Shown here piece after piece: positions 2,686 through 24,241 of a DNA stretch of 64,000 nucleotides. The notes under the pieces are model-generated. The model did no database searches. It saw only the letters and a list, made by a program, of their open reading frames with translations, and was not told the origin of the DNA. The translations under genes and the position numbers were made by a program. Position 1 is the first letter of the stretch; each line of letters opens with the position of its first letter. This stretch comes from Anaeromicrobium sediminis. Its GTDB lineage: Bacteria; Bacillota; Clostridia; Peptostreptococcales; Thermotaleaceae. Location of the stretch: positions 62,001 through 126,000 of the forward strand of contig NZ_NIBG01000003.1 of assembly GCF_002270055.1 (NCBI RefSeq), read 5' to 3'.

Positions 2686-2850
2686 GCTATGAAAAACTAT
2701 AAATTTTCAAAACTGTGGATAAGTAAAAAAATGAAGGGGGTGTGGGGGAAGAATTCCCCTGCTTATTTAAAGGAGGGTGCTCAGCAACTTCAGTTGCGTC
2801 GAAGGGAACCATAGGGTTCCATAGCGAAGCATACGAAGTATGCCTTTTTT
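2686..2850 (+). repeat. Dispersed structured element, copy 1 of 4
   Basis: A 165-bp element starting after TTAC (2682-2685) at the hutG terminator T-run. It holds an AT-rich left hairpin, a conserved GTGGATAAGT block, a GGGGAA/TTCCCC hairpin, a GCAACT/AGTTGC hairpin, a GAACC/GGTTC hairpin, and a final GCATAC/GTATGC hairpin (2829-2843) followed by T6. The other copies are at 24075, 40828 and 49813. In copy 1 the third hairpin has an entirely different sequence from the other copies (which read GATTGC/GCAATC) yet still pairs, which indicates selection on structure. Confidence 0.9.
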
Positions 2851-2917
2851 ACTTAGGTAACAATAAATTTGGACAATGAATAAATTATATTAAGTAATAA
2901 TATAAGGAGGTGCTACT

Positions 2918-3358
2918 GTGAGTGCATTAATTCAGAAGCATCTTTATGTTAACTTTCAACAAGGAGTAACGCCTACTGCTCCCATATTAAATAGATGCTA
3001 TACCGTAACCTGTTGTGAGAAAACATGTCAGATATATTTATCAGTAGGTAGAGAATATAATATTCAAAATGTAAGATCTATGAGAGGAATGTTACTGGCA
3101 CGTTGGACATGCATAAAAAACAGATATGTGCTAAAATGCTGTTGTCCTTTAGGCGGTGGTACAAGGGCAGAGATTAAAAAAGGATATGCAAAATGCAGAT
3201 GTGATTTACCATTAGCACTAGGGGCCATAGTATATGGAGATAGATTATTATTAGAAGCTAATCCTTGTTTATGTAGAGCTCCTATCTATGTAGAATTCAC
3301 ATCTCCATATTATGGTCCCCAGAGATGGAAAACTGTAGATAATTGGAGAATAGACTAG
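2918..3358 (+). CDS. Staygreen-family protein, divergent Cys-rich paralogue
   Basis: A 146-residue protein collinear with the next gene's product (same VTPxAPILxRxYT start, same LPLALxAIxYGDR and APIYVEFxSPY blocks), so it belongs to the Staygreen (PF12638-type) family related to chlorophyll Mg-dechelatase. GTG start with AAGGAGG 7 bases upstream. It differs in two ways: it has 12 Cys residues, and the positions corresponding to His32, Asp34 and Asp57 of its neighbour are Cys32, Glu34 and Gly57. It is therefore probably not a dechelatase; metal binding by the cysteines is an inference. Arranged in tandem with its paralogue, 42 bases apart. Confidence 0.8.
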   Translation: MSALIQKHLYVNFQQGVTPTAPILNRCYTVTCCEKTCQIYLSVGREYNIQNVRSMRGMLLARWTCIKNRYVLKCCCPLGGGTRAEIKKGYAKCRCDLPLALGAIVYGDRLLLEANPCLCRAPIYVEFTSPYYGPQRWKTVDNWRID

Positions 3359-3400
3359 AAGGGATTATATAAATAATTAGAAAATAAGGATGTGCTTGTT

Positions 3401-3850
3401 ATGAGTAGATTAGATCCAAATAAGCTTCAAGTGGACTATTTTCAAGGAGTAACCCCCGTAGCCCCCATACTAGGTAGACACTATACCTTAACCCATAGTG
3501 ATGAAACAGCAGAATTATTTTTGGCAATAGGAAGAAGATACGCTTATGAAAGGATAGGTCCCATGAGGGATGAAGTGTTAGGCCATTGGTTTTGTTGTGG
3601 AACAGAATGTATACTAAAATTTTCAGTCTATCTTGGAGGCGAAAATAGAGAGCTTGTTAAAAAGAGATATGAAATTTTCGTAAGGGAATTACCATTGGCA
3701 TTAGAGGCCATAATGTATGGAGATCGATGTCTATTTGAAAGTAGGCCTTTCTTATATGAAACACCCATATTCATACATTTTCAATCCCCATATGAGGACT
3801 TTGATCATGTGGAACAATGGGGAGTAGCAGGAGATTGGAAAATATATTAA
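3401..3850 (+). CDS. Staygreen-family protein (Mg-dechelatase-like)
   Basis: A 149-residue Staygreen-family protein. The start is set at ATG 3401 because AGGA (3387-3390) is correctly spaced for it; an upstream in-frame GTG at 3392 would sit directly against the RBS. Family blocks seen: GVTPVAPILGRHYTLTHSDET, MRDEVLG and RELPLALEAI. His32, Asp34 and Asp57 correspond to conserved polar positions reported, to my recollection, as needed for Mg removal by bacterial homologues. Clostridia make no chlorophyll, so the natural substrate is unknown; metal removal from another tetrapyrrole is possible. Tandem with a degenerate Cys-rich paralogue upstream. Confidence 0.85.
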   Translation: MSRLDPNKLQVDYFQGVTPVAPILGRHYTLTHSDETAELFLAIGRRYAYERIGPMRDEVLGHWFCCGTECILKFSVYLGGENRELVKKRYEIFVRELPLALEAIMYGDRCLFESRPFLYETPIFIHFQSPYEDFDHVEQWGVAGDWKIY

Positions 3851-3851
3851 A

Positions 3852-3896
3852 AATAACTCAAGTGATAAGAAAAAAATCTTATCACTTTTGTTATTT
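3852..3896 (+). terminator. Terminator after the Staygreen pair
   Basis: AAGTGATAAGA (3860-3870) pairs with TCTTATCACTT (3877-3887); outer AATAAC/GTTATT flanks extend the stem, and T residues follow. Confidence 0.8.
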
Positions 3897-4716: not shown

Positions 4717-5280
4717 GTGAACGATAATACAAAAGAAACTATTATAATAGAAGCGCTGAAACTCTTTAATGAGTTTGGATTCCATGGCACATCCACATCG
4801 AAAATTGCAAAAGCTGCAGGCGTATCTAACGGGGCGTTATTCAATCGTTTCAAGACGAAAGATGAGCTTATCAATGGAATCTACATGTATGTGAAGTTAC
4901 ATTTTAAACAGTATATAGATAGTAAATTTGATGAAAGCCTTGAAACGGAAGAAGCGGTGAAATCACTTTGGAAAAGTACCGTAAAATGGGGCATCGAGAA
5001 TCCCGAATATCTGAAATTTCAAGGGCAGTTTAATAATTCACCTTACGTCAACTGTGTAAATAAAGAAACTAGCAAAGATGCATTACAAGTTGCTTGTGAA
5101 AGAAAGAACCTTTTGAAGAAAAACAGAGAAATTAGTGACGAAGATTTTAATCTACTAGTTATCTGTATGGCAGGAGCAACAAATGCCTTGTCATTTCATC
5201 TGATAAATAACGAGGTTGATGATATCGATGTCCATATGGATAGTGTCTTTGAACTTTTATTTAAAGGCATACTGAAATAA
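4717..5280 (+). CDS. TetR-family transcriptional regulator
   Basis: A 187-residue one-component regulator. Residues 1-55 are a typical TetR helix-turn-helix (ALKLFNEFGFHGTSTSKIAK then GVSNGALFNRFKTKDEL); the remainder is a helical ligand domain with no recognisable specificity. GTG start with GAGGAGG 5-6 bases upstream. A 20-bp palindrome lies over its promoter and a matching one precedes the downstream EFR1 ferredoxin gene, which suggests autorepression and control of that gene. The gene looks slightly less AT-rich than its neighbours and sits inside a cassette bounded by direct repeats, consistent with acquisition as a unit. Confidence 0.9.
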   Translation: MNDNTKETIIIEALKLFNEFGFHGTSTSKIAKAAGVSNGALFNRFKTKDELINGIYMYVKLHFKQYIDSKFDESLETEEAVKSLWKSTVKWGIENPEYLKFQGQFNNSPYVNCVNKETSKDALQVACERKNLLKKNREISDEDFNLLVICMAGATNALSFHLINNEVDDIDVHMDSVFELLFKGILK

Positions 5281-24074: not shown

Positions 24075-24241
24075 TTACAAGAAAATTATAAATTTTTCGA
24101 TCTGTGAATAAGTAAAAAAAGTAAGGGGTTGTAGGGGAAGAATTACCCTGCCTCTTTAAAGGAAGGTGTTCAGATTGCGGTAGCAATCGTCGAAGGGAAC
24201 CATAGGGTTCCATAACGATGCATACGAAGTATGGTTTTTTT
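24075..24241 (+). repeat. Dispersed structured element, copy 2 of 4
   Basis: A 167-bp copy after TTAC. Left hairpin AAAATT/AATTTT, GTGAATAAGT block, GATTGC/GCAATC hairpin, GAACC/GGTTC hairpin, and CATAC/GTATG hairpin (24221-24233) followed by T residues. The GGGGAA/TTCCCC stem has one mismatch here. The AT-rich stretch 24242-24397 after it carries two TTTTAGTAAA-type sites. Confidence 0.9.

Follow-up and report, generated by a model that had tools for sequence, protein, structure and literature searches.

Two adjacent genes in the window, the 64,000-nucleotide stretch of Anaeromicrobium sediminis DNA analyzed here, raise the question of what a Staygreen-family protein does once it has lost the residues for Mg extraction. 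The first gene, copy A (2918..3358, + strand), begins with GTG and encodes a Staygreen-family protein of 146 amino acids, which contains 12 Cys residues and carries C32, E34, and G57 at the positions of the catalytic triad. The second gene, copy B (3401..3850, + strand), encodes a canonical Staygreen/Mg-dechelatase homologue of 149 amino acids (counted from its ATG), in which H32, D34, and D57 are intact. According to the available part of the study on the characterized homologue AbSGR-h (PMC8531759), the physiological function of Staygreen proteins in bacteria is not known. The best explanation of the locus, to which we assign about an even chance of being correct, is a duplication unit in which B is an ordinary dechelatase and A is a retained pseudo-dechelatase that possibly binds metal through its thiols.

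Layout of the gene pair and predicted fold of its products

A and B lie head to tail and adjacent to each other on the same strand, and they are the only two Staygreen matches in the genome (4.71 Mb, 55 contigs). Both ORFs score above the curated cut-off of 27 bits for the Pfam family Staygreen (PF12638), with 97.2 bits for A and 160.5 bits for B, and the two proteins are 41% identical over 148 columns, which confirms the tandem Staygreen genes of the original prediction. A likely ribosome-binding site, AGGAGGTG (2905..2912, + strand), is located 5 nt before the GTG of A. The ORF of B can be read from GTG 3392 as 152 amino acids (3392-3850), but ATG 3401 appears to be the better start because a likely ribosome-binding site, AGGATGTG (3387..3394, + strand), is spaced 6 nt upstream of this ATG and GTG 3392 falls inside that site. 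The residue numbers H32, D34, and D57 first given for B hold if the protein begins at ATG 3401, and not if it is read from GTG 3392. Since the terminator consensus scan listed no terminator between A and B, and a bidirectional intrinsic terminator-like hairpin with a T-run at its stem (3860..3887, + strand; a consensus match only) follows B, the two genes are likely to share a single transcript.

Two further terminator-like hairpins (2742..2843, + strand) are situated between A and an upstream arginase-family gene (1652-2665, assigned by Pfam), inside a repeat element. This intergenic repeat of about 160 bp (2690-2850), directly upstream of A, has a second copy at 24090-24240. Its core scores 74.6 bits with the Rfam Clostridiales-2 RNA (RF02937; gathering score 58.6), and it folds better than shuffled sequences (z = −3.0). 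In the same genome 40 scored copies are listed, itself included (82–100% identity, from 153 candidates), a number that would fit a repetitive or mobile element better than a lone sRNA gene.

Besides Staygreen, A had one sub-threshold Pfam match at E up to 1 (T2SSS_2) and no match in NCBIfam, and neither search related it to a described metal-binding Cys family. AlphaFold, with family alignments as model input, gave pLDDT values of 93.6 for A and 93.5 for B. In VIA-align comparisons with the structure of AbSGR-h from Anaerolineae bacterium SM23_63 (PDB 7Y5Y), the model of A reached Z = 21.8 (rmsd 2.0 over 143 residues, 28% identity) and that of B Z = 25.0 (rmsd 1.6 over 146 residues, 44% identity), an agreement that is expected for models built from family alignments. 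The structural rows after 7Y5Y dropped to Z = 5.1 and 5.0 for A and B. Other folds for A were rejected, as Foldseek produced no further hit at E ≤0.001 and all remaining VIA-align rows for the two models had Z values of at most 5.1. Retention of the Staygreen fold by A is thus a confident prediction of the model. AbSGR-h resembles A and B in family, fold, and length and has an intact triad in common with B, whereas A differs from it by the absence of H32, D34 (Glu in A), D62 (Gly in A), E63, and R95 and by its 12 Cys residues.

Catalytic and hexamer residues of the two copies

The active site proposed for AbSGR-h consists of H32, D34, and D62 (PMC11006732 and PMC8531759, both available in part). 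According to the accessible text of the latter, the variants D34N and D62N were soluble and inactive, H32A showed weak activity, and changes of R26, Y28, T29, and D114 resulted in insoluble protein. The same text describes AbSGR-h as a probable hexamer; T31A, R61A, E63Q, and R95A each abolished the hexamer, and R61A, E63Q, and R95A remained highly active despite this loss.

The family set comprised 142 gathered Staygreen ORFs, with three loci that repeat the pair studied here dropped. Removal of the two fragments of one broken gene resulted in 140 full or near-full sequences including A and B. This broken gene, from the same order as A. sediminis (L060 of genome G202, 4906-5216), is present as two fragments only and likely represents decay. 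All three triad residues are kept in 127 of the 140 sequences. Hence, the positions that had been linked to Mg removal in the original prediction (His32, Asp34, and Asp57) are conserved in the family and match the AbSGR-h triad, and the alignment also bears out the Cys, Glu, and Gly reported for A at these positions. Because D34N and D62N inactivate AbSGR-h, H32A leaves weak activity, and most of the family keeps the triad, dechelatase activity is not expected of A; the triad loss, backed by these published mutants, makes it unlikely that A is an ordinary Mg-dechelatase. B retains the equivalents of H32, D34, and D62 together with all named solubility and hexamer residues, and it departs from its relatives at one column among those that they conserve at ≥90%. 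By analogy with the characterized homologue, B would be predicted to remove Mg from tetrapyrroles of the chlorophyll type.

The solubility residues R26, Y28, T29, and D114 are kept in both copies. A retains 28 of the 45 columns conserved at ≥90% and has lost the other 17. These losses show a trend toward enrichment in the published pocket, with a p value that depends on the column set: 6 of 9 pocket columns versus 11 of 36 others are lost if R95 is not counted as pocket (p = 0.063), and 7 of 10 versus 10 of 35 if R95 is added as in the list of the paper (p = 0.027). S33 is also replaced by Cys in A. A could still be an enzyme, that is, a dechelatase or related demetallase with a Cys/Glu site remodeled for another metal or tetrapyrrole. 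In this case E34 would preserve the carboxylate that, as D34 of AbSGR-h, is proposed to touch the metal (PMC11006732, available part), and both the retained pocket residues T31, T36, and R56 and the recurrence of Glu34 in 13 of 17 triad-altered copies from the order (see below) are consistent with such a site. Set against this are the change of D62 to Gly at a position where D62N inactivates AbSGR-h, the replacement of both H32 and S33 by Cys, and the loss of E63 and R95, although E63Q and R95A were active in AbSGR-h (PMC8531759, accessible text). On these grounds an enzymatic function of A seems unlikely, and a protein that does not perform dechelation is preferred.

Pseudoenzymes often regulate active partners, and A might thus be a regulatory subunit that tunes the activity of B in a mixed oligomer. 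The adjacency of the two genes on one strand with no listed terminator between them, the fold-core residues kept by A, and the probable hexamer of AbSGR-h (PMC8531759, available part) would all agree with this arrangement. However, two of the four hexamer residues are lost in A, which has Met in place of E63 and Gly in place of R95, the two positions whose substitutions E63Q and R95A each abolish hexamer formation in AbSGR-h. At the R95 position, 139 of the 140 sequences have Arg or Lys, and Gly occurs in A alone. A simple hetero-hexamer of A with B is disfavored by the loss of these two residues. With the caveat that the remaining hexamer residues T31 and R61 are kept in A, we regard a regulatory subunit as rather unlikely and continue to favor a non-catalytic A with a function of its own.

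Origin of copy A, selection, and triad loss in the order

In a tree of 108 of the 140 sequences (thinned for redundancy), A was placed as sister to B with an SH-aLRT support of 94. The end branch of A had a length of 3.53, compared with 0 for B, and the composition of A was flagged as odd; a topology in which A joins the other triad-altered copies was not rejected (p-AU = 0.448). Other characters also point to B as the closest relative. A and B have 11 rare residues in common (each found in <10% of the other sequences), versus 7 for A and its best other partner, and at identical residues their codons agree in 32 of 56 cases, versus a mean of 42% for A and the other sequences, 8 of 138 of which reach the value of the A–B pair. 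Thus, A is likely the sister of B, and the data point to a local duplication, after which A changed rapidly, as the likely history. The changes in triad state on the tree number at least 4 in either direction. A single clade of all triad-altered copies including A was not the best tree, although its p-AU value gives no grounds to reject it.

We searched for an orthologue of A in several datasets. None was confirmed by a single-protein scan of genome contigs, and none of the best 80 of 243 relatives was more than 40% identical in an alignment scan, which needs conserved stretches and consequently favors intact copies. Matches outside the own genome were only 29–38% identical in 398 genomes of the phylum, three plasmid records were 32–34% identical, and phages yielded no match. 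A. sediminis is the sole member of its genus in the genome collection searched.

Pairwise estimates between A and B were dN = 0.52 and dS = 0.98 (NG86) or dN = 0.47 and dS = 0.68 (LWL85). A six-sequence codon model gave an omega of 0.46 on the branch of A versus 0.076 elsewhere (LRT = 6.8), and omega = 1 on this branch was not rejected (LRT = 1.03); branch lengths in this model are near saturation and the omega values are rough. With omega fixed at 1, the branch of A measured 1.15 per codon, or about 0.38 per site. A branch-site test for positive selection on A brought no gain. When B was evolved neutrally in silico, the stop-free copies numbered 24 of 3000 at a distance of 0.2 substitutions per site, fell to 4 of 3000 at 0.35, and were absent from the 3000 at 0.5 and from the 3000 at 0.7. 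At least 12 Cys residues were seen in 2 of 3000 copies at 0.7 and in 0 of 3000 at 0.2, 0.35, and 0.5, with a mean of about 4.

These results bear on the reading that A is a duplicate in decay on which selection acts weakly, if at all, with which an omega compatible with 1, the loss of 17 of 45 conserved columns, and the absence of an orthologue from the scans of genome contigs, phylum genomes, and the best 80 of 243 relatives would agree. Decay is nonetheless quite improbable given the intact frame and strong ribosome-binding site, the retained solubility residues, the confidently predicted fold, and the scarcity of stop-free copies in the simulation at divergences of 0.35 and 0.5 (compared with about 0.38 per site on the branch of A at omega = 1). 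The open frame and the simulation disfavor a pseudogene, even though omega is compatible with one, and A is probably a real protein, as the preferred reading of a retained pseudo-dechelatase presupposes.

Staygreen genes were found in 53 of 393 genomes sampled from the order and in 7 of 398 sampled from the phylum, the own genome included in both cases. The order census, from which alone the rate of triad loss derives, contained 58 full or near-full copies; the L060 fragments and, in genome G196, a 22-bit match with 11 stops were not counted. Among these copies, 41 have an H/D/D triad and 17, from 14 of the 53 genomes, have an altered one: eight are YED, three HED, and one each CEG, YTN, HDN, SNN, HEN, and YFN. 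In 13 of the 14 genomes with an altered copy (drafts included) no intact partner was found beside it, the only exception being the own genome. Seven genomes of the order have at least two Staygreen ORFs, one of them (G202) being the case with the two L060 fragments. In G222, a single gene separates two altered copies that lie about 2.2 kb apart. Among the named loci, Jeotgalibacillus salarius (L116) also carries two copies, here at a distance of about 3 kb, neither of which is listed with an altered triad. Multiple Staygreen genes thus do occur in relatives, but among the seven genomes of the order only the A–B pair is directly adjacent.

The altered copies of family f4 from the same order (e.g., L043, L044, L049, L050, L053, and L054) resemble A in that most fold residues are kept, one to three triad residues are changed, and Glu at position 34 is frequent. 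Unlike A, they have no intact partner that we could find, contain 0–7 Cys residues, and stand apart from A on the tree. All eight matched genomes of genus g44 (G065, G098, G103, G107, G111, G115, G146, and G196) encode Y/E/D at the triad positions of their single full Staygreen gene; several species of this genus have thus retained an altered copy.

The occurrence of a duplicated Staygreen gene in a Clostridium had been considered unexpected in the original prediction. This view was not supported, as Clostridium homologues have been known since 2009 and 17 of the 58 order copies are triad-altered. The available part of the 2009 study (PMC2716323) reports Staygreen genes in 11 of 44 Clostridium and 3 of 41 Bacillus genomes without an obvious conserved context and describes no triad-altered, Cys-rich copy in direct tandem. 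The surprise is therefore smaller, given how widely Staygreen is known to occur in Firmicutes and how often the triad is lost in the order; what looks special about A is its direct tandem with an intact partner and its Cys content. The titles and abstract openings among the literature matches listed, which mostly lay outside the subscription literature, named no triad-altered or Cys-rich bacterial Staygreen protein.

The lack of a widely shared neighbor in the 2009 data is mirrored in our context survey of 100 stretches (99 loci of ≥4500 bases and the first 12 kb of the window), in which no conserved operon around Staygreen was seen and the commonest cluster after Staygreen, an ABC-type ATPase, occurred in 12 of 100 stretches. 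In six f4 genomes (L045, L046, L048, L050, L051, and L053) a diverged Staygreen gene, with an altered triad in L045, L050, L051, and L053, lies near genes that group with HydF and radical SAM genes of the [FeFe]-hydrogenase maturation type (assigned by clustering, with Pfam on L053 only). Five of these six loci are also near a gene that clusters with a long subtilase (Pfam on L051 only). This neighborhood may reflect shared synteny only. In two other relatives (L125:5001-6200 and L068:5001-6191), the Staygreen domain is followed by a C-terminal part without a Pfam match, which clusters with stand-alone proteins from the Staygreen neighborhoods of L069 (an FG-GAP protein according to Pfam) and L080 (unmatched in Pfam). 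The own genome encodes two relatives of the L069 FG-GAP protein, located elsewhere. A functional link between the Staygreen family and such FG-GAP-type fusions or neighbors is possible from these arrangements.

Cysteines of copy A and its possible role

The 12 Cys residues of A are at positions 27, 32, 33, 37, 65, 74, 75, 76, 93, 95, 117, and 119 and include a pair (32-33) and a triplet (74-76). B has 4 Cys in 149 residues, which agrees with the counts first reported, and only C65 of A aligns with one of them, so that 11 Cys residues of A are found where B has none. Cys makes up 1.0% of residues in the 50 ORFs of at least 100 amino acids in the window (A included), and at this fraction the binomial probability of ≥12 Cys in 146 residues is 3.5e-8, or about 2e-6 when multiplied by 50 ORFs. 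The Cys count of A is the highest among the 140 family sequences, the next highest being 7. At 7 of the 12 Cys columns of A, Cys is absent from the 139 other sequences, at the other 5 it is present in 2–11 of them, and no other sequence has more than 2 of these Cys positions.

That A is a structural, disulfide-crosslinked protein, e.g., of the spore surface, is very unlikely: the Cys pair and triplet, the presence of spore-forming genera among the named relatives, and the two relatives with a Staygreen domain fused to a domain like the stand-alone FG-GAP-type proteins could be read in its favor, but Pfam recognized no sporulation protein among nine neighbors, and B and the other family sequences have just 0–7 Cys. 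Our preferred explanation remains that one Staygreen gene was duplicated to form the two-gene unit of A and B. B would be an ordinary bacterial Staygreen protein that, judging from its residues, extracts Mg from chlorophyll-type tetrapyrroles. A would have retained the fold, lost the Mg-extraction triad and two of four hexamer residues, and gained 11 cysteines relative to B. It would be co-transcribed with B, carry out no dechelation, and hold a soft metal ion such as Zn or Fe by its thiols. Cys sets of this kind in anaerobes often bind metal; nevertheless, the putative binding of a soft metal ion is the weakest link of the explanation. Most plausibly, A would be a metal- or tetrapyrrole-holding protein and thus a non-catalytic companion beside B.

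A more specific version, in which local duplication turned the dechelatase fold into a thiolate metal acceptor so that the metal which B extracts from a tetrapyrrole is taken over or stored by A, is speculative and has a small chance of being correct. If true, a dechelatase would here have a dedicated acceptor for its metal, with both proteins built from the same fold. Consistent with a non-photosynthetic organism, the Mg-chelatase/CobN family has no match in the own genome; one ferrochelatase match fell below the cut-off.

The presence of an intact and an altered triad copy in one cell provides a built-in control for finding what these proteins bind. The order census may be the more useful outcome of this analysis, as 14 of the 53 Staygreen-bearing genomes have an altered copy, beside which no intact one was found in 13. 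Since the fold is kept without the triad, our data suggest that the Staygreen family has a bacterial role independent of Mg extraction. Such a role would bear on the function of the family before its use by plants in chlorophyll breakdown.
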